This document shows, one piece after another, positions 18,901 to 55,511 of a stretch of DNA of 64,000 bases (within the stretch, counting starts at the first letter, position 1; each line of letters begins with the position of its first letter). The notes under the pieces were generated by a model. It saw nothing but the letters and a program-made list of their open reading frames with translations. It did no database searches and was not told the origin of the DNA. This DNA is from an uncultured Actinomycetes bacterium (GTDB taxonomy: Bacteria; Actinomycetota; Actinomycetes; Actinomycetales; Bifidobacteriaceae), in contig OMWX01000001.1 of NCBI GenBank assembly GCA_900314875.1, positions 1 through 64,000 on the forward strand, read 5' to 3'. The translations under genes and the position numbers were made by a program.

Positions 18901-19120
18901 ACGTTTTCTGACTTTTTGACGTTTTCTGACTTTTTATTCTTTTGTGATTCGCATTCGGCAGCAGACACGGCAACCGCTCATCCGATTCTGCATTCAGCAT
19001 AATGCACTCAGCATAATGCACTCAGTCGCGCGGCTGTTAAGGCTAAGCAGATCATTTGCACAACCGTATGCGCAGCCGATTCAAGCACTGCCAATCATGC
19101 GCAGCCAATCATGCGCATAA
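18901..19120. repeat. Cluster of short tandem duplications between two membrane-protein genes
   Basis: Three separate duplications lie here: ACGTTTTCTGACTTTTT repeated at 18901 and 18919, AGCATAATGCACTC repeated near 18997 and 19011, and CCAATCATGCGCA repeated at 19091 and 19105. No gene is seen in the spacer itself. Confidence 0.65.
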
Positions 19121-21547
19121 TCCCATAAACCAGCTTTTCACATAGTTAAACAGGAAAGGATCGGTTGTTGCCAGAGAATCGTATCTGTTCGGACAAAAGA
19201 ATCCGCAGAATGTGACAGCGACAGAAATAAACACAGCCGCGAAAACCGCGATATTCCACAGTCTTGCGACAGCAGGAATTTCAACGGAAGACACTTTTGC
19301 AGAAAATACTTTTGAAGAAGACAGCTTTGCGTCATTCTTTTTCAAGGCAGCCGCTTTCTTTTTGACTTCTGTTTCGGTATTTTTATCGGCATTAATTTCG
19401 GCCTTTTTATCGGCTTTCCGCCCGATAAATTCGCGCATTTCTTCTTCCATGCACAACGCGGCAAAAATCGCCGCAAACATAAACAGATATCCCGAATCGC
19501 CTATGTATCGATTGTTTACTCCGCATGTTTTCACATCGGCAAAAACAATCGCAAAGCCCAAAACAAGCGACATGACGGTCATAGCGTAAACTCCGCGCTT
19601 CTTGAGCCTTCCTCTGACCGCGTAAAAGAACAGACCGAAAAGGGCGAACGGGGCAAGAGCGAAAAATCCGCCGAAAGACGGCTCGCAGGGAGCAGCAACC
19701 GCATTGTCTGCCGCCTGAACAAAGGGAAAAGCCGCAGTAAGGTTTATCGGCTGGAAAAGCTGCAAAAACAGCATTGCGCCCAGCAGGAACAGCGACGGAC
19801 GGTCGCGAGTCATGTCATATGCCGTCAGATTGTAGTTAGATCCGAAATCAAGGAACGACCCGAAACGCGCATAATTATAAGCCAGAAGAGGAATTATAAC
19901 CGCCGCAAAAGGCAAAATGGCTGCAAGAGTGGTTTTCCATGTTTTCTTTGAAAAAACCAGCCGAGAATGCCTGATTTCATCCCAGAAAATCGGGAAAGCC
20001 AGCAAGGCGGCAGCCGCGAAATGAGGACGGCATCCGACATTCATCGCCATGCAGAACGATCCGAGCGCGACACGCCAATTCGACAGGTATATTTCGCCGG
20101 GTTTGCGCGAGGTTTTATTTTCTTCAGAACCGCTTCTCACCCGCCTTGCGCAAAGCCAAAAATACAGACTGGCGCAGGTAAACATCATCGAAGAAAGAAC
20201 GGGGATTCCGTAGAAAGACGGGCAGAAAACGTAATACCAGAGACTGTTTGCAAACATAAAGGCGATAAGAGAAAGCAGACTCATGCCGAGCGAAGCCTCA
20301 GGGAAATATCGTTTTATCAGCTTTAAAATCAGAAGAACTGCAAAAATCGTGAAACTGATCGCAAAAATAACGCTTGCGACAGAAATCGGCAGCCAGGATC
20401 CCGTCAGAGCCTGATAAGGAGCAAACAGAATCACCGCAGGAATCACGCCGAAATAGCTGTAATAATGCCCTTGAAAATATGCATGATCCCAGAAAAAAAC
20501 AGCGCCGTTTGCCAGATTTAAATCCTGCCGAGCGTTGTAATTGTAGGGATTGTCCATCTGCAAAAGCGCATTATCAACAGGCAAATCAATCCAAGCGCGG
20601 CCGTTGAGAATCGACTCTCCCAGCCGCTGATACTGCGCCGGCTCAAACCAGTGCTGAAATCCGTACCCGAACTCCATATTGTCCGATTTGAAGAAAATTC
20701 CGCCGGTAAGCTGGCTGACAATCAGCAAAATAAGCGATTGCGCAACAATTATTGACGCAAACAGAATTTTTTGCGAGCGCAAAGCAAGGTTCAACTTCAT
20801 GCGATACAGCTTGGATTTCGGGCGGAATGCAATTATAAATGCAGCGGCTGCAGACATTATCAGCAGGCGTTCGGGCGCGATTTTGAACGGCACGGTCGGA
20901 TTGAATTCGACTCGCGAGAGGCTGACGGTTTTGCCTTTGTCTTCTTTCTCGAAGCTTATGCGCAAAGTGTCGGACAGGCGATTGTTGTCGCTTTTCTGCC
21001 CTGCGAGGATATATTGAGTTTCGTTCAAATGCGTATATGTCAGTTCGCGCGTGCGGTCAAACCAGACGCCTTCGCCCAAATCGCGCCATTTTCCGCCGTT
21101 ATTCGATGTGTAAAATTTCGCCGTATTGAATGTGCATTCGCCGTCAGCCGGGACAAGCCGCAGGCTTTCGAGCTGAGCGGGCTGAGAGTCTGCCGGTTGA
21201 GAGTCTGCCGGTTGAGAGCTGTCTGATTGAGAGTCTGCTGAGTCAGATTCGTCCGATTGAGAGTCTGCTGAGTCAGATTTTAAAGCAGAAATATTTGATG
21301 TGAAATTATTTGCAGCGGAAATCGGAATGTCGATCACGGCATTTTCCGGATCTGTTATCAGATAATGCCCGCCGCCTTTATTTTCAAGACCCGAACCGTA
21401 AGAAAAGTCTCCCGCAAAAACGGACTGCGCTGCGCATGTGCGCCAATGACCGAGGTTAAACACGGCAATTTCAGCCGTAAGAATAATGATTATCGCAACG
21501 ATTGCCCTTGTTGAAATTTTGGACAATATCGCTTGCAGGCGGCGCAT
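19109..21547 (-). CDS. Large polytopic membrane protein with N-terminal extracellular domain
   Basis: An 812-residue membrane protein that I do not recognise with certainty. One helix at about 14-34 is followed by an extracellular domain to about residue 225, which contains a Ser/Asp/Gln repeat zone (units of SADSQSDES and QPADS), then roughly ten transmembrane segments. The first membrane block carries FWDHAYFQGHYYSYFGVIP, and YYSYFGV-type motifs occur in actinobacterial integral membrane glycosyltransferase candidates. A Lys/Asp/Ala-rich cytoplasmic stretch precedes the last helix. AAAGGA before ATG 21547 supports the start. It is followed on the same strand by the other large membrane protein, suggesting a pair. 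Function is inferred only. Confidence 0.68.
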   Translation of the reverse strand: MRRLQAILSKISTRAIVAIIIILTAEIAVFNLGHWRTCAAQSVFAGDFSYGSGLENKGGGHYLITDPENAVIDIPISAANNFTSNISALKSDSADSQSDESDSADSQSDSSQPADSQPADSQPAQLESLRLVPADGECTFNTAKFYTSNNGGKWRDLGEGVWFDRTRELTYTHLNETQYILAGQKSDNNRLSDTLRISFEKEDKGKTVSLSRVEFNPTVPFKIAPERLLIMSAAAAFIIAFRPKSKLYRMKLNLALRSQKILFASIIVAQSLILLIVSQLTGGIFFKSDNMEFGYGFQHWFEPAQYQRLGESILNGRAWIDLPVDNALLQMDNPYNYNARQDLNLANGAVFFWDHAYFQGHYYSYFGVIPAVILFAPYQALTGSWLPISVASVIFAISFTIFAVLLILKLIKRYFPEASLGMSLLSLIAFMFANSLWYYVFCPSFYGIPVLSSMMFTCASLYFWLCARRVRSGSEENKTSRKPGEIYLSNWRVALGSFCMAMNVGCRPHFAAAALLAFPIFWDEIRHSRLVFSKKTWKTTLAAILPFAAVIIPLLAYNYARFGSFLDFGSNYNLTAYDMTRDRPSLFLLGAMLFLQLFQPINLTAAFPFVQAADNAVAAPCEPSFGGFFALAPFALFGLFFYAVRGRLKKRGVYAMTVMSLVLGFAIVFADVKTCGVNNRYIGDSGYLFMFAAIFAALCMEEEMREFIGRKADKKAEINADKNTETEVKKKAAALKKNDAKLSSSKVFSAKVSSVEIPAVARLWNIAVFAAVFISVAVTFCGFFCPNRYDSLATTDPFLFNYVKSWFMGLCA

Positions 21548-21784
21548 CGGTTTCCTTTCGCTGTGCTGTTCGGTTTTTGTTCAAACTCATATTATTCTAC
21601 GTTTTGCGCAATACGGACGCAGCATTGCATACCGTCGATGACGGCCGCGAGAATGCATCACGATTTTTTCGGGGGTCTCATTTATGCACATTGTGAAGCT
21701 GCGATTATGCGCAGGCAAAATTATTCGGATAAAATTGACGCAATCGAAAAATGGCAAAAGAATAAACAGACAGAAGGGAACGCT

Positions 21785-23230
21785 ATGTTTAAAAGATGGA
21801 CTCCCCGCCGAGTTGCGATTATGCGCAGAATCAGAGTTGTTTCGGCTGTTCTGCTGACTTTTGTTTTATTTGCAGCGACTTTTTTTATCGGAGTCAGAAA
21901 AACCGTCGCATTGGAAATCAACGGAGAGAAAAGCACGGTAACCACGTTTGCAATGACCGCCGAAGCGCTGCTTGCGGAACGGCATGTTGATGTGAAAACA
22001 CATGATTTTATTGATTCGTCGAGCGGAAGCCGGCTTGAAAATAATGCGGTTGTTATTTTTAAAACCGCATATCAGACCGCGATTTCGATAAACGGAGTCG
22101 AAGTTCCTTTTTGGACTTACGCGACAGACGCGACTCAGATCCTGAATTTCTTCGATTCTGCCAGGGAGAATTCGATTGATGTTTCTCTGAAGGTAAACAA
22201 TATTTACGACAAGCTTTCAGGCAGCTTCGCAATTAACGAAAACGGTCCGGTAACTGTTATCTGCGACGGAAAAATTTCAGAAGCGCCCGACGGCAAGCTT
22301 CCGGCTGCTTCAATTCTGGATCAGCAGGGAATCACATTAGACAAAGAAGATCGCGTGAGCGTGGAGAAAAATTCAGATAAGCCGATTCTGCGCGTTTCAA
22401 GGGTAAAACACGAACAGCAGACGCAAACCGTGCCTATTCCGTATACCACGCAGACAATAATCGATCCGAACCTTGAAGAAGGCAAATCTGAAGTGCGTTT
22501 AAACGGGCGAAACGGGGAGAAAATCCAAATTTTTGACGTTACGCTTGTTGACGGAGTTGAAGAAAGCAGGAAAGTCGTTAACGAAACGATTGCAAAAGAT
22601 CCTGTTGTCGAAATTGTCGCAAAGGGCGGAAAAAAGCCCGATTCGCTGTCAGATTCAGATTCTGACAATTCTTCAAAAAAACAGGATTCGCAAAATCCGC
22701 AGTCAGACAATTCGCAGTCAGACAATAATTCTTCGACGAATCCGGCGCCCTCCGCAGATCCGACCGCAACCCCGACTCCGGAACCGCAGGACGATCCGAC
22801 AGTCGATCCGTCGCCTTCGCCGACCGTAAATCCGCAGCCTGAGCCTTCTCCGGCTCCGACTGTCGACCCGACTCCGGAACCTGAACCGGAACCCGAACCT
22901 TCGCCTGAACCCTCCCAAGATCAGTGGCATGCAACGCCTTTGGAAGCTCAGGTTTATGCACAGGCAGTCGCCGCACAACGAGGATGGACAGGCAGCAACT
23001 GGGAAGCGATTCTGTTTTTGTGGGAACACGAGTCGAACTGGAGATGGAATGCGGAAAATCCGTATTCGGGAGCTTACGGAATTCCGCAAGCTCTGCCCGG
23101 CAATAAAATGGGCGCGGGATGGCATGACAATGCTGCAGTGCAAATCCAGTGGGGAATGAGCTATTTTTCAAGCAGATACGGCACACCGACAGAAGCTCTG
23201 AGACATTGGAAAGAACACAACTGGTACTGA
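21785..23230 (+). CDS. RpfB-like cell-wall lytic transglycosylase with DUF348 and G5 domains
   Basis: Secreted or anchored peptidoglycan hydrolase, 481 residues. A basic N terminus and one helix at about 18-36 (VVSAVLLTFVLFAATFFIGV) are followed by DUF348-type repeats, a G5 domain at about 215-290 (TQTVPIPYTTQTIIDPNL), a Pro/Thr/Glu-rich linker at about 300-378 and a C-terminal lysozyme-like domain whose probable catalytic Glu is in WEHESNW, followed by SGAYGIPQALPG. Mycobacterial RpfB has the same DUF348-G5 layout but an Rpf domain at the end; here an SLT-like domain takes its place. ATG 21785 is set by AGAAGGGAA five bases upstream. It precedes ksgA-ispE, as rpfB does in Mycobacterium. Confidence 0.88.
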   Translation: MFKRWTPRRVAIMRRIRVVSAVLLTFVLFAATFFIGVRKTVALEINGEKSTVTTFAMTAEALLAERHVDVKTHDFIDSSSGSRLENNAVVIFKTAYQTAISINGVEVPFWTYATDATQILNFFDSARENSIDVSLKVNNIYDKLSGSFAINENGPVTVICDGKISEAPDGKLPAASILDQQGITLDKEDRVSVEKNSDKPILRVSRVKHEQQTQTVPIPYTTQTIIDPNLEEGKSEVRLNGRNGEKIQIFDVTLVDGVEESRKVVNETIAKDPVVEIVAKGGKKPDSLSDSDSDNSSKKQDSQNPQSDNSQSDNNSSTNPAPSADPTATPTPEPQDDPTVDPSPSPTVNPQPEPSPAPTVDPTPEPEPEPEPSPEPSQDQWHATPLEAQVYAQAVAAQRGWTGSNWEAILFLWEHESNWRWNAENPYSGAYGIPQALPGNKMGAGWHDNAAVQIQWGMSYFSSRYGTPTEALRHWKEHNWY

Positions 23231-23379
23231 TTTGACGAAAGAGTGCGCGAATCTGCTGTTCATTTGCGCAACGGAAAGTGCAATATTGAAGTGCAATGTC
23301 ATAGAATATGGCATAAAATAGTGTTTTTGCAGACTGCGTCAACACATGATTACGACACTCATTCACAGGGGGAACGCGA

Positions 23380-25455
23380 TTGACTGCTTCGAATGCGATA
23401 AACGATTCGAATTCCAATAAAACGTTCGGCGACCCTGAAAAAGTCGAAAAACAAGAGAAACACAGCCTTTTGGGAGCTGCCGATATCAGACGAATCGCGG
23501 CTGAAGCAGGAATAAAACCGACAAAAAAATACGGACAGAATTTCGTTATCGACCCCGGAACCGTGCGAAAAATTGTGCGTGCGGCAAATATTGAAGAAGG
23601 AAGCGAAGTTTTGGAAGTAGGTCCGGGACTCGGATCTCTTACTTTGGGACTGCTGGAAGCCGGCGCAAACGTCACGGCAATTGAAATTGATACTGCTCCT
23701 GCCGAGCGTCTGCCGAAAACCGTCGAAGAATTTACGCCGCACGCGCTGAAAAGACTTGAAGTTATTAATGCAGATGCTCTTGAATGCAATGCGGAAAATT
23801 TGCCGAAACTTGCGAGCGCACGGGGTTTTGCAATGGTGTCAAACCTTCCTTATAATGTCGCAACGCCGATTATTCTTACGCTTTTGGAGCGTTTTAAGAA
23901 TCTGAAATCCTTTGTCGTAATGGTGCAAAAAGAAGTTGCAGACAGACTCACGGCGAAAGAAGGAAGCAAAATATACGGCGTTCCGTCAGTAAAACTCGGA
24001 TGGTACGGAAAAGCCGAAAAAGCGGGTCTTGTAGGAAGAAATGTTTTTTGGCCGGCTCCTCACGTCGATTCGGCTCTTGTGAAATTTACGCGCGAAAACA
24101 GATTTGACGACAGCTTGCGAGAACTGACTTTTTCGCTTGTCGATACCGCATTCGGACAAAGACGGAAAACTCTTCATGCGATTTTCAAGAAAACGATAAA
24201 CAGCAAAACATTCAGCCGCGCGGGAATTGATTCTTCGCTTCGCGCCGAAACCTTGACAACAGACGATTTTGCGAAGCTTGCCCAAGTTTTGAGAGCGGAA
24301 AACAAACAGGATAACAGTCAGCAAAACGAATCCGAAAGCAAAGAATCTGCTCAAACGCATGAGCAAAAACATAAACAAAAGCAAGAGAGCGATGCAAAAC
24401 ATGCGGCAGCGAAAAATGAGAATATAAAGTATGTCGTCCGGTGTCCGGCAAAAACAAATCTGATTTTGCACGTCGGGGAAACGCGCGCAGAGTGGGGCGG
24501 AAGGCACGAACTGGAAACAGTTTATTGCGCAGTCGGAATAACAGACGAAGTAACCGTGCAAAACGGAAAAAAAGGCAGCGGGATAAAACTTAGCATTTCA
24601 GGGGATCATCTGGGAGATTTGGAAAATTCTACAGAATCCGACAAAAAACGAAATCATGCTTTTAAGGCAGCTTTGGCAATGCATGATGAAGCGCGCAAAT
24701 CGGAAAAAGACGGATTTGATTCAAAGCCTGACACGGAACCTGATTTGGAAATCGCAATTAAAAAACGCATTCCCGTTGCGGCCGGCTTGGGCGGAGGCTC
24801 GGCAGACGCAGCAGGAACAATTCTGGCAATCAACGAATTGTGGAATCTTCATCTGCCGAATAAGCGTTTGCGCGAAATAGCGGCTTCTTTGGGAGCAGAC
24901 GTGCCTTTCTGTTTAGCCGGAGGTCTTGCCAGAGGTTCGGGATACGGCGAAATTATTGCTCCCATAGACGAAGAATCTTTCGAAGGGCGCAAATGGAGTT
25001 CGGCGGTAAAACATATTATTGTCGGCGCATACGATAAGGGATTAAGCACTCCGAAAGTTTATGAGACATGCGACGCTTTGCGAAATGCAAGGAAATACAA
25101 TCATGAAGCGGCTTTGGAATATCACCCCGACGCGAAAGACAGAGAAAAGCCTTTTTCTCTGTTTCGGAAAAACGTGTACGGCACAAAAATGCCGATTTAT
25201 TCTGCAAACGACCTGGAAGAGGCTGCTTGCGTGCTTAATCCGCGTTCGGCTCAGGCAATTCGTCAGGCATACGAAAAAGGCTGCGATTTTTCGTTTGTTT
25301 CAGGATCGGGTCCTACTGTTATTGCTTGCGCTGCTTCTGAGGAAATACTTGAAAATATTTGCAGCATATGGCTGGAATCAGGTTCGGCGGACAGAATCTT
25401 TTTCGCCGAAGCTCCGGTCATGACGCAAATTAAGAAAGTTGCGGACATAAACTAG
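23380..25455 (+). CDS. ksgA-ispE: Fused 16S rRNA dimethyladenosine transferase / CDP-ME kinase (KsgA-IspE)
   Basis: One 691-residue reading frame carries two enzymes. Residues about 28-306 are RsmA/KsgA, which dimethylates two adenines near the 3' end of 16S rRNA: KKYGQNFVID (49-58), SAM motif LEVGPGLGSLT (78-88) and catalytic SNLPYNV (154-160). Residues 308-349 are a charged Lys/Gln/Glu/His linker. Residues about 351-691 are IspE, which phosphorylates 4-diphosphocytidyl-methylerythritol in the MEP isoprenoid pathway: CPAKTNLILHV and the GHMP loop PVAAGLGGGSADAAG (465-479). The genes are normally separate neighbours (rpfB-ksgA-ispE in Mycobacterium). No in-frame Met lies between the KsgA C terminus and residue 434, well inside IspE, so a separate IspE start is unlikely. 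TTG 23380 has GGGGGAA six bases upstream. Confidence 0.9.
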   Translation: MTASNAINDSNSNKTFGDPEKVEKQEKHSLLGAADIRRIAAEAGIKPTKKYGQNFVIDPGTVRKIVRAANIEEGSEVLEVGPGLGSLTLGLLEAGANVTAIEIDTAPAERLPKTVEEFTPHALKRLEVINADALECNAENLPKLASARGFAMVSNLPYNVATPIILTLLERFKNLKSFVVMVQKEVADRLTAKEGSKIYGVPSVKLGWYGKAEKAGLVGRNVFWPAPHVDSALVKFTRENRFDDSLRELTFSLVDTAFGQRRKTLHAIFKKTINSKTFSRAGIDSSLRAETLTTDDFAKLAQVLRAENKQDNSQQNESESKESAQTHEQKHKQKQESDAKHAAAKNENIKYVVRCPAKTNLILHVGETRAEWGGRHELETVYCAVGITDEVTVQNGKKGSGIKLSISGDHLGDLENSTESDKKRNHAFKAALAMHDEARKSEKDGFDSKPDTEPDLEIAIKKRIPVAAGLGGGSADAAGTILAINELWNLHLPNKRLREIAASLGADVPFCLAGGLARGSGYGEIIAPIDEESFEGRKWSSAVKHIIVGAYDKGLSTPKVYETCDALRNARKYNHEAALEYHPDAKDREKPFSLFRKNVYGTKMPIYSANDLEEAACVLNPRSAQAIRQAYEKGCDFSFVSGSGPTVIACAASEEILENICSIWLESGSADRIFFAEAPVMTQIKKVADIN

Positions 25456-25529: not shown

Positions 25530-26144
25530 ATGGCGAATCCGCAAACCGCTAAAGAACGTGAAGCGCGCAAGAAGTTCATTCATGCGCGACACCGCGTCGT
25601 TTTTACGGGCGCGTGCGCTTTTATCGCCGCAGCAGTGCTTATCTCTCTGCCGTTTGTCCTAAGTTCTTCGAATTCAAAGGTTACGGATGCGTCTAGTTCG
25701 GATAATTTCGGAGTTACCGCGCCCTGCGCTCCCGAAGACACGGTAGCTGCAGACACCAAAACAATAACCGTGCGCGTTCTTAACGGAACATTAAAAGTAG
25801 GTTTGGGCGGCGCAGTCCAGGAAGCGCTGGACTTGCGCGGCTTCATCACAAAAGATGCTGAAAATTACAGTGATACCGCCGTCTCGAGAACCGAGATTAT
25901 TTTCGGCAAGAATTCGATAGTCGATGCTTACACTCTGCTAGGACACTTCAACGACGCAGCTTTGCACATGGATGACCGCGAAGACAAGCTGGTAGACGTG
26001 GTTATCGGCGATACGTTTGACAATCTGAATCCCGAGAAAGATGTTTTAACATCAGTCGGACAGCCTCTGAAATCTGTCAAAGGCTGCGTCCCCTCAGACT
26101 TGATGACGAATCTGCCTATCGCGCCGCCGCATGAAGCAGTCTGA
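25530..26144 (+). CDS. LytR C-terminal-domain membrane protein
   Basis: A 204-residue protein with a basic N terminus, one transmembrane helix at about 25-46 (VVFTGACAFIAAAVLISLPFVL), and an extracellular domain that begins TITVRVLNGTLKVGLGG, resembling the LytR_C domain found at the end of LytR-CpsA-Psr proteins or alone in actinobacteria. No catalytic LCP domain is present. GCGAGGTGAAAA precedes the ATG. It lies 74 bp after ksgA-ispE and converges on the CCA enzyme with 23 bp between stops. A cell-wall role is likely but unspecified. Confidence 0.8.
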   Translation: MANPQTAKEREARKKFIHARHRVVFTGACAFIAAAVLISLPFVLSSSNSKVTDASSSDNFGVTAPCAPEDTVAADTKTITVRVLNGTLKVGLGGAVQEALDLRGFITKDAENYSDTAVSRTEIIFGKNSIVDAYTLLGHFNDAALHMDDREDKLVDVVIGDTFDNLNPEKDVLTSVGQPLKSVKGCVPSDLMTNLPIAPPHEAV

Positions 26145-33779: not shown

Positions 33780-36044
<2,265 letters not shown>

Positions 36045-44929: not shown

Positions 44930-46693
44930 ATGAAGCAAAAGCTGCAATTTAAGAAGGGAATTGCGTTGGAACAGCAACAGTTTTCAAAAACTGACGAAAA
45001 CGAAACTCCTTTGGAGGCCGCAAAAAATCTGTGGTCCTCCGCAATTGAGATACTTCTCGCGGATTCTTCTTTGTCTATGCGCGACAAAAGCTGTTTTTTC
45101 GATCTGCTTCCCCAGGCTTTGTATGATTCGATGATTGTTTTGTCCGCTTCAAATGATTTCACCAGATCGAATGTGGAGAACAATCTTTCGCAGAAGTTAA
45201 GTTCTGCTCTGAACAGCGCAGCAGGTCATCAGATGACTTTTGTTATTAAACTTGATCCTCAAAAGCAGGAAAAATTTTCTGATGATTCAGGCAGGAAAGA
45301 AAAAACAAAATCGCCGAAAAATGAACCCTCAAAAATTGAAAAGTCTCAAAATATTCAAACTCAGGCTGTTCTGACTCAAAACAAAACCGAATCTGTTCTA
45401 AGCGAATCGGCAAAAACCGAACCGGAAAAAACCGAACCCGCAAAAATTGAAAAAATTCAGCCAAGCGCGGATGCGATAGCAATTATTTCGGAAGAAAATT
45501 CTAATATTTCCGCAGAAAACACAGATTTGCCTGTTTTAAACGAAAATAATCTGCCGGACAGCAGCAACTTAAGCGCAGAAAACCCTGAGAATATTCAAAT
45601 CGGAAATACCGATATTTCGGATTTTGCTCATCAGCGGGTTGCCAGAGACAGCGTTACTCACTTGAATTTGAACGCAACTTTCGACACATTCGTCCCCGAG
45701 CAGGGTTCTTTCGCTTATGCGGCGGCTTTGCAGGTGGCCGAACAGCCGGGAACGACAATGAATCCTCTGTGTATTTACGGAGATTCGGGGCTGGGCAAAA
45801 CTCATCTTCTGAATGCGATCGGCAATTATGCACTTCAGCAGGATCCTTCTTTGAAAGTTGTTTATGCGAATGCCGAGGAATTCACAAACGAATTTATCGA
45901 CGCGGTCGGAGCTTCGGCTCAAAACAGGCAGGCTGTGAACAACTTCAACAACAAATACAGGAAGGCTGACATTCTTCTTATCGACGATATTCAGTTCTTG
46001 TCCGGAAAAGAGCAGACTCTCGAGCAGTTTTTCCATACTTTTAATGCTTTGCATGACGCAAACAAGCAGATTGTCATCGCTTCGGATGTGGCTCCCATTA
46101 ATTTGAACGGCTTTGAGCAGCGGCTTATTTCCAGGTTTAACAACGGAGTGGTCGCGGATGTCAAGCCGCCGAATCTTGAGACGCGAACAGCTATTTTGCG
46201 GCAGAAAGCCATTCGCAGCAATATCGATATTTCATCTGAGGTAATCGATTTGATTGCCGAGCAGGTAACGACTAACGTGCGGACTTTGGAGGGCGCTCTT
46301 ACCCGAGTGGCCGCAATGTCTTCGCTTACTCATCAGCCGATTACTCTTTCTTTGGCTCAGCAGATTCTCAAAGATTATTTTTCGGCGGAAGTTGACATTA
46401 CTCCCACGGATATTATTAAGACCACCGCTCAATACTTTCAGATCAGTTTCGATGATATTGTCGGTCCTTCCAGAACGAAGAATGTGGCTCTCGCCCGTCA
46501 GGTTTCGATGTATATTGCGCGCGAAACTACTAATATGCCTTTGAAAAACATAGGAGAAGTTTTCGGAGGCAGGGATCATTCGACCGTTATGCATGCATGC
46601 AAAAAAATTGATTCGGCAATGGCCAAAAAATTGGATGTTTATAATATGGTGACCGCGATTACTGCGAAACTTCATAACGATTCGAATAAGTAA
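44930..46693 (+). CDS. dnaA: Chromosomal replication initiator DnaA
   Basis: Binds DnaA boxes, melts the origin and recruits helicase. The 587-residue protein has domain I at about 28-105 (AAKNLWSSAIEIL), a long acidic, Glu/Lys/Ser-rich linker to about 235, the AAA+ domain with Walker A GDSGLGKTHLLNA near 284-296, Walker B ILLIDDIQFLSG and sensor sequences, and domain IV with GGRDHSTVMHACKKI near 546. The linker is longer than in E. coli, as in many actinobacteria. ATG 44930 has no clear ribosome-binding site; TTG 44966 has GAAGGG before it and is an alternative start. Confidence 0.97.
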   Translation: MKQKLQFKKGIALEQQQFSKTDENETPLEAAKNLWSSAIEILLADSSLSMRDKSCFFDLLPQALYDSMIVLSASNDFTRSNVENNLSQKLSSALNSAAGHQMTFVIKLDPQKQEKFSDDSGRKEKTKSPKNEPSKIEKSQNIQTQAVLTQNKTESVLSESAKTEPEKTEPAKIEKIQPSADAIAIISEENSNISAENTDLPVLNENNLPDSSNLSAENPENIQIGNTDISDFAHQRVARDSVTHLNLNATFDTFVPEQGSFAYAAALQVAEQPGTTMNPLCIYGDSGLGKTHLLNAIGNYALQQDPSLKVVYANAEEFTNEFIDAVGASAQNRQAVNNFNNKYRKADILLIDDIQFLSGKEQTLEQFFHTFNALHDANKQIVIASDVAPINLNGFEQRLISRFNNGVVADVKPPNLETRTAILRQKAIRSNIDISSEVIDLIAEQVTTNVRTLEGALTRVAAMSSLTHQPITLSLAQQILKDYFSAEVDITPTDIIKTTAQYFQISFDDIVGPSRTKNVALARQVSMYIARETTNMPLKNIGEVFGGRDHSTVMHACKKIDSAMAKKLDVYNMVTAITAKLHNDSNK

Positions 46694-47213
46694 ATTTTCC
46701 TGACGCGACACGCCGAGAGAAAAATTATTTTCAAAAAAGTTATCCACATTTTTATCAACACTTAGGGGAAAAGTATGTGGATTATCATGTTTATTTTGTT
46801 AATAACAGGTGAATAAATTGTTTATAAATCAACATTTTTCCGGAACTGAAATGCAAGTGTGGATAACTGGGGTACTTATCCACATTTTTTCTCCGGTTTA
46901 TTCACATTTTCAATTCGCTTTCTTTTGTTGAGAAATAAAGTCCGGCCGCAGTTTTGCACACAATCCACAGCCCTTATTACTGCTAACTTCTTTCTGTTTT
47001 TAAATTTCTTCACAGCAATGATCAAATGTCTCAGATGAGAAAAACAAAAGAAAATTTTATTCGCTAAAATTATTTTTCGGATGAATTTCGTCAGAAAACA
47101 AACAAAGTTTGCAAGCCGAATGCAGTCCGAACAAAAGTTTGCAAAAACTCAAAACATTGTCATACTCAAGTTTTGACTGAAAACATGCTTGAAATCCGAA
47201 AAGAAAGGGAAAA
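46694..47213. other. oriC: Replication origin, dnaA-dnaN part
   Basis: A 520-bp AT-rich spacer with more DnaA boxes: perfect TTATCCACA at 46740-46748 (+), 46858-46866 (-) and 46876-46884 (+); variants TTATCAACA at 46752-46760, TAATCCACA at 46776-46784 (-) and TTATTCACA at 46898-46906. The AT-rich block 46785-46840 between the box pairs is the best candidate for the unwinding element. In many actinobacteria this is the functional origin. The dnaN promoter must also be here. No gene seen. Confidence 0.88.
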
Positions 47214-48341
47214 ATGAAGGTCGAACTGAATTGCTCAGCTTTTGCCGAGGCCGTTTCCTGGGCGGCTCGCATAATACCGACAAAGCCTGCTGTGCCTGTT
47301 CTTTCGGGTATAAAACTTGAAGCTTCCCAAGATTCGCTGCACTTGTCTGTGTTCGATTACGAAAAATCCGCAAGAAACGAAATCGCAGCTCAAACAGAAG
47401 AAACCGGAACTGTTGTAGTTGCCGGAAAACTTCTTGAGTCCATTGCGAAACTTATGCCCGGCGAAACTGTAACTTTAACTTCATCCGGTTCGAATCTGAC
47501 GGTTGAATCGGGCAAATCAAAATTCACTTTGCAGCTGATGCCCGAAAGCGAGTATCCTCAGCTGCCTGAAATTCCGAAAGAAGCCGGTCAGGTTGATGCC
47601 GATACCTTTGCAAATGCCGTAAGTCAGGTTTCCGTTGCGGCTGCAAAAGACGAGACTCGCCCGGTTTTGGCCTCGGTTCGAATGGAATTCAAAAAAGATG
47701 AAATTATTCTTACTTCCACGGATCGTTATCGCCTTGCTCAGGCTCGCTTTAAATGGACGCCGACAGATCCTGATATTGACGCAATGATTCTTATCAGCGG
47801 TTCAACTTTGAAAGATATTTCCCGAACTTTTGATATTCATCAAAATATTTCCTTCGGATTTGATGCGGAAAAACCGAATCTTATCAGTTTTTCGAATGCC
47901 GGAAGAATTTCCACGGTTCAGATTATCGAAGGAGAATTTCCTCAGGTAGAAAAACTTCTTGCTCTGAAGCATCCCATAGAAGCCGTTGTGGAACGCAAAA
48001 CTCTTATCGGAGCTCTTCGCAGAGCTTCAATCGTTGCGGACACCGGAACTCAGACTGCCGTATGGCTTACTTTCAGTTCCGACGAGCTGTCTATAGTTTC
48101 GGGAGAAGCAGGCGATTCGCAGGCAACTGAAGCTATTAAAGCCGATTTGGACGGAGACGGAATCAGAATCGGTTTCAATCCCGCCTTCCTGCTTGAAGGT
48201 CTTAATGCGATAAATGAGCCTTATCTTCGATTCAAAGTAACCGATCCGACAACTCTTGCTCAGATTAACGGACAGCAGGAAGCAGATTCAGACAATTCTG
48301 AAGATTACGCGTACATAATCGTTCCTGTCAGAGAAATGTAA
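47214..48341 (+). CDS. dnaN: DNA polymerase III sliding clamp (beta subunit)
   Basis: Ring-shaped processivity factor for replication. The 375-residue protein has the three repeated clamp domains, with typical segments ATDRYRLA-like LTSTDRYRLAQARF near residue 163-176, the hydrophobic pocket region, and the C-terminal YIIVPVREM in place of the usual YLVMPMRL. Length is standard. AGAAAGGGAAAA precedes ATG 47214. It is followed by recF after 137 bp and is transcribed rightward with it. Confidence 0.97.
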   Translation: MKVELNCSAFAEAVSWAARIIPTKPAVPVLSGIKLEASQDSLHLSVFDYEKSARNEIAAQTEETGTVVVAGKLLESIAKLMPGETVTLTSSGSNLTVESGKSKFTLQLMPESEYPQLPEIPKEAGQVDADTFANAVSQVSVAAAKDETRPVLASVRMEFKKDEIILTSTDRYRLAQARFKWTPTDPDIDAMILISGSTLKDISRTFDIHQNISFGFDAEKPNLISFSNAGRISTVQIIEGEFPQVEKLLALKHPIEAVVERKTLIGALRRASIVADTGTQTAVWLTFSSDELSIVSGEAGDSQATEAIKADLDGDGIRIGFNPAFLLEGLNAINEPYLRFKVTDPTTLAQINGQQEADSDNSEDYAYIIVPVREM

Positions 48342-48478
48342 TCAAAGGAAAACTGTTTAAACTGCAAAAACAGATAATGCGGTCAGGAAAAGAAAACAAC
48401 ACAGAAAAGAAGTTGTCTGAAAAATATAATTTTTCTAAATCCTTTGCAACATATCGGACTTGAGAATAAGGGGAAAAT

Positions 48479-49837
48479 ATGAGAGCGAAAATTGTTCGCC
48501 GTCTTGCTTTGGACGATTTTCGCTCTTGGGAGAACTGCATTGCAGATTTTATTCCCGGGATCAATATTCTCGAAGGAAAAAACGGTCTGGGAAAAACAAA
48601 TATTGTCGAAGCAATAGAGTTTTTGTCAATCGGAACTACTCACAGAGTTTCATCCTCCCTTCCCCTTATCCGGCGCGGGGCATCAAAAGGTTCTGTAAGA
48701 GCTTTAATTCAAACATCTTCTCAATATTCGGAGAAATCTGAATCAGCAAAATCTGAATCGGCAGATTTTTATTCGGCAGAGCTCGAATCAGCAGAATCTG
48801 AAGAGGTGAATCTGCAGGCAACAATTTTTTCTCGCGGAGCAAATCGGGCGCGAATAAACGAAGAACCTTCTGTATATATGAAAAAAATTGCCGGAATTTT
48901 GAAAACCGTTGTTTTTTCTCCCGACGACAAACTTATCGTTTCGGCGGATCCGGCAAAAAGAAGAGATTTTATCGACTCAGTCTGCATTCAGCTGTTCGAC
49001 GGCTATTTTGACTGTTTGCAAAAGTTTTCTTACATAGCAAAACAGAGAGCTGCTCTTCTTAAAAGTATTCAAAAAAATCTTTCTGAAAATCCGAATTCTG
49101 CAAACGACAGACTTAGCGAGCTGGAAGTCTGGACAAGTCATTTCATCGACAGAGGAATTGAACTGACATTTTTCAGAAAAAAAGCCGCAGAACTGATTTC
49201 CCCTGTTTTTTCAAGGGTATATAAAGTTTTTTCGCAAGAAAATTTCGGAAATGAAATTGAAGAAAACACAATTGAAAACGCAAAAGAGCAGAATGCAAAA
49301 ATAGAATATTCTCCTTCTTTTGAGGAAGCCATTATATTTGAAACAGAAGGAAAAAAGCGGATTAAATCTGAAATAAGCAGTCATTTTGCTCGAATTTATG
49401 CCGGAGAAGCGAGCAGAGGCAGAAATCTTATAGGACCTCACCGCGACGATCTCAATATTTTTCTTGACGGAATGACCGCGCGAGAATTTGCGTCGAACGG
49501 AGAAAAGCAGACGCTGGCTCTTGCGCTGAAAATTGCTTTGTTTGAACTGCTTAAATCAAAAGGAGAAGAGCCGGTTCTTATATTTGACGATGTTTTTTCT
49601 CAGCTTGACGATTTGAGAAGACGAAATATAACAGATTATGCGCTCAAATGCGGGCAGGTTTTTATCACGGCTGCTTCGAAAAACGATATTCCCGGCGAAA
49701 TTATCAATCAAAATTCGCAGAAAGTGAATATTATCGAAGTTTCAAGCCTGATTTCCGGCGGAAAGGAAAAGAGCGAAAACGAAAAAACAGAAGAAGAAAG
49801 GCTGGCCGGAATGATAAAAGCGGAGCGAATGCAATGA
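48479..49837 (+). CDS. recF: DNA replication and repair protein RecF
   Basis: SMC-like ATPase that loads RecA on gapped DNA. The 452-residue protein has Walker A EGKNGLGKTNIVEAI near residue 32-46, the signature region FASNGEKQTLALALKIA and Walker B PVLIFDDVFSQLDDLRR. A Ser/Glu/Ala-rich insertion at about 82-110 (units SEKSESAKSESAD) and a second one near 255-275 make it longer than the usual 360-400. GGGGAAAAT lies before ATG 48479. The stop overlaps the next gene in ATGA, so the two are translationally coupled. Confidence 0.95.
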   Translation: MRAKIVRRLALDDFRSWENCIADFIPGINILEGKNGLGKTNIVEAIEFLSIGTTHRVSSSLPLIRRGASKGSVRALIQTSSQYSEKSESAKSESADFYSAELESAESEEVNLQATIFSRGANRARINEEPSVYMKKIAGILKTVVFSPDDKLIVSADPAKRRDFIDSVCIQLFDGYFDCLQKFSYIAKQRAALLKSIQKNLSENPNSANDRLSELEVWTSHFIDRGIELTFFRKKAAELISPVFSRVYKVFSQENFGNEIEENTIENAKEQNAKIEYSPSFEEAIIFETEGKKRIKSEISSHFARIYAGEASRGRNLIGPHRDDLNIFLDGMTAREFASNGEKQTLALALKIALFELLKSKGEEPVLIFDDVFSQLDDLRRRNITDYALKCGQVFITAASKNDIPGEIINQNSQKVNIIEVSSLISGGKEKSENEKTEEERLAGMIKAERMQ

Positions 49838-50370
49838 ACGCCTCCGAAAATGCTGCGAAGAGCAGGATAATCCAAAAACCCGTTTATGCGGCTTTGAAAC
49901 TTGATCCCTCAGTATTGGAAAAACAGATTTTTGAACGGTTCACTCAATATTCCGAGAAACTTTCTCAGAGAAAAAAACGTGCCGAGTCGGCAAGAGAAAA
50001 CTTCGGAAAACCGGGAAGAGAAGTTAAAGTTGCAGTTCCGCTGTTTGAAGCCATAGCCGATGCATACGGGTGGCGTCCCTACTTGGAAGACGCGCGAATT
50101 AAACAAAAATGGAAAGAAATAGCCGGAGAAAATGTTGCTTACAATTGTCAGCCCAAGATTTTTAGAGACGGAGTTCTTGAAATTTGCGCGAGATCAACCA
50201 ATTATTCTGTGCAAATAAAGTATTATGTCCCTCAAATTCAAAAAAATCTAAAGGAGGTCGTCCCTGAAATCAATGTTGAAAGGATAGAAGTGACAGGACC
50301 TCAAAATATTAAGTTTGAAGAAGAAGAAAATAATAATTCGGGTCGCACGGTCAGAAAAATATACAGATAA
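49834..50370 (+). CDS. DUF721 protein, DciA-type helicase loader
   Basis: DciA proteins recruit the replicative helicase DnaB in bacteria that lack DnaC or DnaI. The 178-residue product has about 75 charged N-terminal residues and a C-terminal DUF721 domain (IADAYGWRPYLEDARIKQKW, GENVAYNCQPKIF, VLEICARSTNYSVQIKYY). ATG 49834 overlaps the recF stop by four bases and has CGGAG upstream. Longer frames further left lie within recF and are rejected. Position recF-DUF721-gyrB is conserved in actinobacteria. Confidence 0.9.
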   Translation: MNASENAAKSRIIQKPVYAALKLDPSVLEKQIFERFTQYSEKLSQRKKRAESARENFGKPGREVKVAVPLFEAIADAYGWRPYLEDARIKQKWKEIAGENVAYNCQPKIFRDGVLEICARSTNYSVQIKYYVPQIQKNLKEVVPEINVERIEVTGPQNIKFEEEENNNSGRTVRKIYR

Positions 50371-50484
50371 GAATATATGCGCATAAAAGAACTGTAAGCC
50401 TTTTTAGTCGCCGTCTTGCAGTAGACTATCTGTATATGTGTCAAGTGCTTCAGAAGCATGTTTTTGCAAGTTTTTGGTGCATGA

Positions 50485-50499
50485 CATGTTTAGAACATG
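50485..50499. promoter_or_regulatory. Inverted repeat upstream of gyrB
   Basis: CATGTT-TAG-AACATG is a perfect 6+3+6 inverted repeat in the DUF721-gyrB spacer, 127 bp before the preferred gyrB start. It could be an operator; the binding protein is unknown. Confidence 0.35.
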
Positions 50500-50559
50500 C
50501 CTGTTTGAACGGAAAATGAAACATCAGAGTTTAAACACTGCATATTTTAAACGCTGTAA

Positions 50560-52725
<2,166 letters not shown>

Positions 52726-52778
52726 ATCGATAAGCACTGCAAAACGAAAGATTTAAAAATTCGAAAGCGGAATGAAAT

Positions 52779-55511
52779 ATGGCAGAAGAGAACGACAATA
52801 ACGAATTGAACCCGTCCGATATGACCGCACCGGCCGGCGGCGAACTCGAGCAGACGGATGACTTCGGTCTGATGTCCGGACAGCGCGTCCAGCATATGGA
52901 TTTGCAGCAGGAAATGCGCGAATCTTATCTGGCTTACGCTCTTTCGGTAATCGTGGAAAGGGCTTTGCCGGATGTTCGAGACGGCATGAAACCGGTTCAC
53001 CGCCGCGTGGTTTATGCGATGTATGACGGAGGGTATCGCCCGGATCGCGGATACAACAAGTGTTCGCGCGTTGTCGGAGACGTAATGGGTAAGTATCATC
53101 CGCACGGCGACGCGGCTATTTACGATACTCTGGTTCGAATGGCTCAGTCCTGGTCGATGAGGTATCTGCTTGTCGACGGTCAGGGAAATTTCGGTTCTCC
53201 CGGAAACGATCCCGCTGCGGCCATGCGTTATACCGAGTGTCGCATGGAACAGCTGGCAATGGAAATGGTTCGCGATATCGACAAAGATACAGTTGATTTC
53301 ATTCCCAATTATGACGGCAAAACGCAGGAACCCACTGTGCTTCCCAGCCGATTCCCAAACCTGCTGGTCAACGGATCTGCGGGTATCGCGGTCGGAATGG
53401 CGACCAATATTCCTCCTCATAATCTGCGTGAGGTTGCCGACGGAATTCATTGGGCTTTGGATAATCCGGATGCGAGCAGTGAGGAGCTTCTCGAGGCTCT
53501 TATCGAACGCATTAAAGGACCTGACTTCCCTACCGGAGCCGTAATTCAGGGACGCGCCGGAATTGAGAAAGCATATCGTACCGGGCGCGGTCTTATAACA
53601 ATGCGCGCGGTTATCAATACCGAAGAGATCAACGGACGCATGTGCCTTGTGGTGACCGAACTTCCCTATCAGGTCAATCCTGACAAGCTGGTAGTTTCCA
53701 TTCGCGAATCTGTGCGCGACGGGAAAATTCAGGGAATTGCGGACATGCGCGACGAGACATCCGGCCGTACCGGTCAGAGGCTTGTTCTTGTTCTGAAAAG
53801 AGATGCTGTCCCGAAGGTTGTTCTGAATAATCTTTACAAGCATTCCGCGCTTCAAACCACATTCGGCGCGAACATGCTTGCTCTTGTTGACGGAGTTCCG
53901 CGCACGCTTAGTCTCGACGCGTTTATTCGTCACTGGATTAATCATCAGCTTGAAGTTATCGAGCGAAGAACCGCTTATTTGAAGCGCGAAGCTGAAGAGC
54001 GAGACCATATTTTGCAGGGGTACCTTAAAGCCCTGGATATGATTGACGAGGTAATCGCTTTGATTCGCAGTTCTCGCGATGCGGAAAGCGCGCGCGAAGG
54101 ACTTATCGATCTTCTTAAGGTCGATCAGGTTCAGGCGGATGCGATTCTCGCAATGCAGCTTCGCCGTCTTGCGGCTTTGGAAAGACAGAAGATTCTTGAA
54201 GAACATGAAGAACTTCTGCGCAAAATTGCGGATTATAACGATATTCTTTCCAGTCCTGAGCGTCAGCGCAGCATTGTGGGAAGCGAGTTGACTGAGGTCG
54301 TTGAAAAATACGGCGACGACAGACGCACGGAAATTAAGCCGGATTCGGGCGAAGTTAATTTTGAAGACCTTATTACCGAGAAAAATGTGGTTGTCACCGT
54401 TACTCGCGGAGGATATATCAAATCCACGAAAGTTGAGGAATACAGAGCTCAGCATCGCGGCGGAAAAGGCATTAAAGGAACCAATCTTCGCGAAGACGAT
54501 ATCGTGGAACATTTCTTCCTGACATCCACGCATAACTGGCTGCTCTTCTTTACAAATCAGGGTCGCGTATACCGCATTAAGGCATACGAGATCCCCGAAG
54601 GTTCGCGAGATGCCAAAGGTTCTCATGTTGCAAATCTTTTGCAGCTTAATCCCGACGAAACCATTCAGCAGATTTTGTCGATTAAGAATTATGAGGCTTC
54701 CAAATATCTCGTGCTGGCCACAAGAGAAGGAATTATCAAGAAAACTCCTCTTACCGATTATGATTCCCCGCGTCAGGGAGGTCTTATCGCGATTCGTCTG
54801 GACGGCGTGAACAATGACAGAGCCTGCGGAAAAGAAAACGAAGTCATCGATGAGCTCATCGGAGCCGCGCTTTGCAATCCTGAGGACAATATTATCGTTG
54901 TTTCCAAGAACGGAAAGAGCGTAAGATTCAGCGCGAACGACAAGAGTCTGCGTCCGATGAGACGTCCTACGCGAGGAGTTATCGCCATGAAGTTCGGCGA
55001 AAGCGGAACAGACGGAGAATCGGCAGAGAAAGACGAGCTTTTGAGCATGGATGTCGTTCCCGAAAATTCAAAGAGCGACCTGCTTGTAGTTACTTCCAAG
55101 GGATTTGCGAAGAGAACGGCTTTGAATGAGTATCGCGTTCAGAAGCGCGGCGGATACGGCGTTAAAGTAATGAATGTTACCGAAGGAAAAGGAAATCTTG
55201 TAGGAGCTGTCGTCGTAGAAGAAGACGATCAGATTATGGCAGTAATGAAGTCCGGCAAGGTTATCCGTTCTGACGTCTCGGAGATTAAGCTCACCGGACG
55301 ATATACTCAGGGAGTAACTCTGGTCAAACCCGGAAAGAATGATTCCGTTATATCTATTGCCAGAAATGCGGAAAAAGACAATCTGGAAAATGAGAATGCG
55401 GCTGAGAATTCAGCTGGAAATTCATTGCCGGAATCGGGCGAACAAGTTTCGTCCGAAAATGCTGATAGTGTCACAGATATAAACGGTTCTTCCGGCAACG
55501 GACAAGAATAA
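52779..55511 (+). CDS. gyrA: DNA gyrase subunit A
   Basis: Breakage-reunion subunit of gyrase. The 910-residue protein has about 40 extra N-terminal residues, DNA-gate core with the catalytic tyrosine in AAMRYTE (Tyr151), and a C-terminal beta-pinwheel that includes the GyrA box [10 protein letters not shown]. The quinolone-determining region reads HGDAAIYD, with alanine at residue 112, where E. coli has Ser83; the Asp87 equivalent is kept. A 40-residue acidic Glu/Asn/Ser tail ends the protein. Transcribed with gyrB; DUF3566 follows 48 bp later. Confidence 0.97.

Follow-up and report, generated by a model that had tools for sequence, protein, structure and literature searches.

The window analysed here, a 64,000-nucleotide stretch of DNA, carries ksgA and ispE in a single reading frame, which raises the question of whether this frame encodes a genuine bifunctional polypeptide and, if so, whether the union reflects functional coupling of the two enzymes or drift. 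As summarized in Table 1, the frame crossed both the KsgA and the IspE domains with no internal stop codon, and the 691-residue product proposed in the preliminary description was borne out by this frame together with the profile matches. The KsgA half scored 244.6 bits against TIGR00755 over residues 46-303, above the equivalog cut-off of 171, retained the GQNF, EVGPGLGS (SAM-binding) and NLPY/NLPYN (catalytic) motifs intact, and had B. subtilis KsgA as its nearest solved structure (E = 2e-38, PDB search). The IspE half scored 208 bits against PRK03188 over residues 347-681, under the cut-off of 286, and against TIGR00154 (cut-off 138.7) it gave 139.6 bits when the C-terminal half was searched alone and 137.3 bits with the whole protein. 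Its motifs PAK(358)TN, GLGGGSADAAG, LGAD(507)VPF and SGSGPT were intact, K358 and D507 being the catalytic Lys and Asp (K10/D141 in the E. coli numbering), and its nearest solved structures were the IspE proteins of M. tuberculosis (E = 2e-35, PDB search) and M. abscessus. Neither match is a matter of chance, and the earlier statement that the key motifs are preserved on both sides agreed with the motif table and the PDB matches. These observations confirmed the fusion, with KsgA and IspE both complete in one frame.

Table 1. Position and basis of the features of the fused gene and its neighbors in the window.
Feature	Position	Strand	Basis and remarks
rpfB-like gene, upstream	21533..23230	+	DUF348 and G5 domains
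Shine-Dalgarno-like AGGGGGAA, 5' of the TTG start	23367..23374	+	sequence; G-rich, AGGAGG match imperfect
fused ksgA-ispE gene	23380..25455	+	691 aa, TTG start; single open frame and Pfam/NCBIfam matches
KsgA/RsmA domain, residues 46-304	23515..24291	+	TIGR00755, PDB 6ifs, motif table, model
in-frame TTG, residue 292, KsgA C-terminus	24253	+	poor Shine-Dalgarno
in-frame TTG, residue 304, closest candidate for internal initiation of a separate IspE	24289..24291	+	poor Shine-Dalgarno
charged Q/N/K/E-rich linker, residues 308-349	24301..24426	+	coding-like codon score in frame; pLDDT <50 in part
IspE (CDP-ME kinase) domain, residues 350-684	24427..25431	+	PRK03188/TIGR00154, PDB 3pyd, motif table, model
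LytR_C domain protein gene, downstream	25530..26144	+	domain match

The assembly to which the window belongs, a draft in 12 contigs with a completeness of about 90%, yielded a single IspE match and a single full KsgA match, both of them in the fused gene. Since this was the sole IspE found, IspG and IspH were present, and HMG-CoA synthase gave no match in the same incomplete assembly, the IspE half is probably needed by the organism, whose isoprenoid route appears to be the MEP pathway. With their motifs intact and as the only copies found, both halves are likely active; the N-terminal half would dimethylate A1518/A1519 of 16S rRNA, and the C-terminal half would phosphorylate CDP-ME in the MEP pathway. 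An AF2 model built from a 33-row alignment, whose rows were read through the natural stop, gave pLDDT values mostly above 90 for both domains and below 50 for residues 317-343, which are thus predicted to be disordered. Because of this low-confidence segment and a pTM of 0.53, no fixed arrangement of the halves is predicted, and the model depicts two independently folding enzymes on a flexible tether. Foldseek comparison of the model matched IspE 4emd with a TM-score of 0.87 (by target) and KsgA 6ift with 0.86.

The gene order rpfB-ksgA-ispE, which in M. tuberculosis constitutes a co-transcribed operon with proposed co-regulation (PMC6009663), was conserved, in that an rpfB-like gene lies 5' of the fused gene, and the neighborhood claimed in the preliminary description was thereby corroborated. 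The rpfB-like product gave no match to the Pfam Rpf catalytic domain, and its C-terminus looked lysozyme-like by eye. Elsewhere in the window, two large ORFs at 19109-21547 (812 aa) and 33780-36044 (754 aa) had no Pfam match at 0.001. Since dnaA, dnaN, a RecF/SMC-like gene, gyrB and gyrA stand in a row at 44930-55511, the region of the replication origin probably lies within the window.

The occurrence of the fusion was surveyed in 189 Bifidobacteriaceae, in 396 genomes of the order and across the class. Because short-linker fusions can drop below the survey thresholds (Nanchangia, G905, was missed at 1e-108), the order was searched with a broader profile, and all the fusion frequencies are lower bounds. 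In most of the 189 and 396 genomes, the two genes were separate neighbors or no IspE was found there. A continuous frame was present in 3 of the 396 order genomes, namely the window, G270 and G483 (broader profile, among the rows listed), and in 45 further genomes the two domains shared a frame that was interrupted by at least one stop. A wide distribution of the fusion in the order, which equal open-frame lengths had seemed to indicate, was rejected because direct ORF checks revealed one stop between the genes in those cases. No other fused row was found among those listed in the class survey, whose thresholds short-linker fusions may escape. Direct ORF checks added G027 (L033) and G008 (L042) from Bifidobacteriaceae, and Nanchangia anserum C64 (L122, a complete genome) and G995 (L223) from Actinomycetaceae. 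At least seven fused genomes in three families were thus found, including the single-contig genomes of Nanchangia anserum C64 and G483, so that the fusion is rare and not unique to the window. Literature searches found no published KsgA-IspE fusion in the library covered; UniProt may label KsgA-IspE entries as a multifunctional fusion.

G270 and G483 (L171 and L217) are two species of one genus, both fused, whose KsgA and IspE parts are 79% and 74% identical, respectively, and whose linkers are 50% identical over the aligned residues and differ in length by 24 nt, in frame. Across lineages, the linkers were unrelated, with lengths of about 6 to 50 aa, and two fusions had hardly any linker; G008, which has almost no linker, also has a long KsgA branch. 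In the G008 family, several low-completeness relatives carry ksgA and ispE on different contigs. The window's genus is represented by this one draft genome, and no IspE match was available for comparison in genus g2, which contains the nearest KsgA relatives of the window. In a KsgA tree of 49 rows, from which G008 was omitted for its long branch, the six fused rows needed five changes, all forced by supported branches. A single clade of all the fused rows was rejected (p-AU 2e-4), as was a clade of the window and G027 (p-AU 1e-4), and a clade of Nanchangia and G995 was not rejected (0.26). Because the tree rejects one clade of fused rows, the fusion arose several separate times.

The IspE part of one fused protein, that of G027, has a broken Asp motif (LRPEVAF) and a degenerate active site. 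The Asp motif is also broken (LGHGIPF) in G015 (L034) of the same Bifidobacteriaceae genus, g16, where ispE is separate. IspG, IspH and HMG-CoA synthase were not found in the three g16 drafts G027, G015 and G204 (76-95% complete), and we offer the reading that the g16 IspE homologue, fused to or beside KsgA, may be a relic or a repurposed kinase; should IspG and IspH be truly absent, the fusion in this genus cannot serve the MEP pathway. In the bifidobacterial genera g2, g3, g6, g11 and g12 and in parts of g13 and g15, the tested members had neither an IspE match nor IspG, and IspH was absent too in the members of these genera where it was searched. Several of these members without IspE, a group that takes in the window's nearest KsgA relatives (g2), carry HMG-CoA synthase, which suggests MEP-to-mevalonate switches within the family.

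Two rival explanations concern the frame and its product. An assembly artefact, in which two close or slightly overlapping genes were joined by the omission or insertion of a single base in the linker, is conceivable as far as the sequence goes because 20 kinds of change, in a simulation of all single-base changes in the window linker, yielded two tidy adjacent genes; moreover, the window comes from a draft, and in most bifidobacterial relatives examined the genes occupy different frames, a short gap or overlap marking their junction. However, the linker frame scored as coding along its whole length, and the same fusion occurs in the complete genome of Nanchangia, where the identical simulation produced no change giving two tidy genes. 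An assembly slip is likewise not expected for G270 and G483, since the fusion they have in common persists over real divergence, and we regard an artefact in the window as unlikely. The other explanation, that the fused frame is real and a large part of the IspE is produced on its own, by internal initiation or by cutting of the linker, bears on the earlier claim that no credible alternative start precedes the IspE domain. The charged linker was found as described and contains no in-frame ATG, GTG, TTG or stop codon, and the stretch from the end of KsgA to the IspE lysine has no ATG or GTG in frame; the claim stood for these codons and has to be amended for the two in-frame TTG codons in Table 1. 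These TTG codons, the protease accessibility expected of a linker predicted to be disordered, and the weak transcription start that M. tuberculosis ispE has of its own, immediately 5' of the gene (PMC6009663), would all favor a separate IspE. Against it, both TTG codons lack a good Shine-Dalgarno sequence, the only promoter-like matches on the + strand of the gene (23827-23856, consensus matches only) lie far 5' of the linker, and the roughly 38 codons nearest the IspE lysine of Nanchangia include no start codon, so that substantial separate synthesis also seems improbable.

The reading that we consider probable is a real bifunctional polypeptide, the outcome of a near-neutral fusion between neighboring genes of an operon. 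The step that joined ksgA to ispE would have been either a small indel or a mutation that removed the stop codon of ksgA, and the pair may often be one mutation away from fusion because these conserved neighbors often share a frame. The fusion would hold the two activities at a 1:1 ratio, with no new function apparent; the equal synthesis anticipated in the preliminary description would accordingly hold, provided that the protein is neither cut nor internally initiated. Near-neutrality is favored because the fusions are rare and scattered, their linkers are unrelated and unconserved, and the fused G027 has a broken IspE. An adaptive fusion would instead couple ribosome maturation to isoprenoid or cell-wall precursor supply, either through stoichiometry or because IspE is kept at pre-30S particles. 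It could draw on the repeated fusion of this pair in independent events, on its long persistence in one genus (G270/G483), and on the M. tuberculosis operon rpfB-ksgA-ispE, which is co-transcribed and for which co-regulation has been proposed (PMC6009663). Such an adaptive origin is nonetheless very improbable in our estimation, given the rarity and scatter (3 genomes of the 396 sampled in the order, among the rows listed), the unconserved linkers, the domain arrangement left unfixed in the model, the fused G027 with its broken IspE site and with IspG and IspH not found, and the expectation that a neighboring pair will fuse by chance now and then. The proposed localization of a MEP enzyme to the site of ribosome assembly found no support, for similar reasons: the linkers differ entirely, the tether is predicted to be flexible, most in-frame relatives keep the stop, and the G027 IspE is broken. 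It would be equally surprising if the repeated fusion in Actinomycetales had been selected for tying the amount or place of isoprenoid precursors (for the cell-wall carrier lipid) to small-subunit maturation; if true, the fused KsgA-IspE would be a growth-rate coupling device.

The understood roles of KsgA and IspE are unchanged by the fusion, and the fused gene suggests that linkage in a single polypeptide is tolerated by a ribosome-maturation enzyme and by an essential isoprenoid kinase. Its recurrence provides a clean natural experiment on drift versus selection as the cause of fusion between operon neighbors, and caution is called for in IspE drug-target work in fused species. The fusions of Nanchangia anserum C64, G270/G483, G995, G027 and G008 have the same domain order in one frame as the window, with motifs mostly intact, whereas their linkers are unrelated to that of the window and the KsgA tree sets them apart from it. 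Compared with the actinobacterial operon represented by M. tuberculosis rpfB-ksgA-ispE (PMC6009663), the enzymes, their order and the upstream rpfB-like gene are alike, but that operon encodes three separate proteins, while ksgA and ispE form one reading frame in the window. Among known fusions of MEP enzymes, IspDF (PMC13001223, PMC10663253) likewise combines an enzyme of the MEP pathway with a second enzyme in a single chain; the two parts of IspDF both act in that pathway, whereas the partner of IspE in the window is a 16S rRNA methyltransferase.
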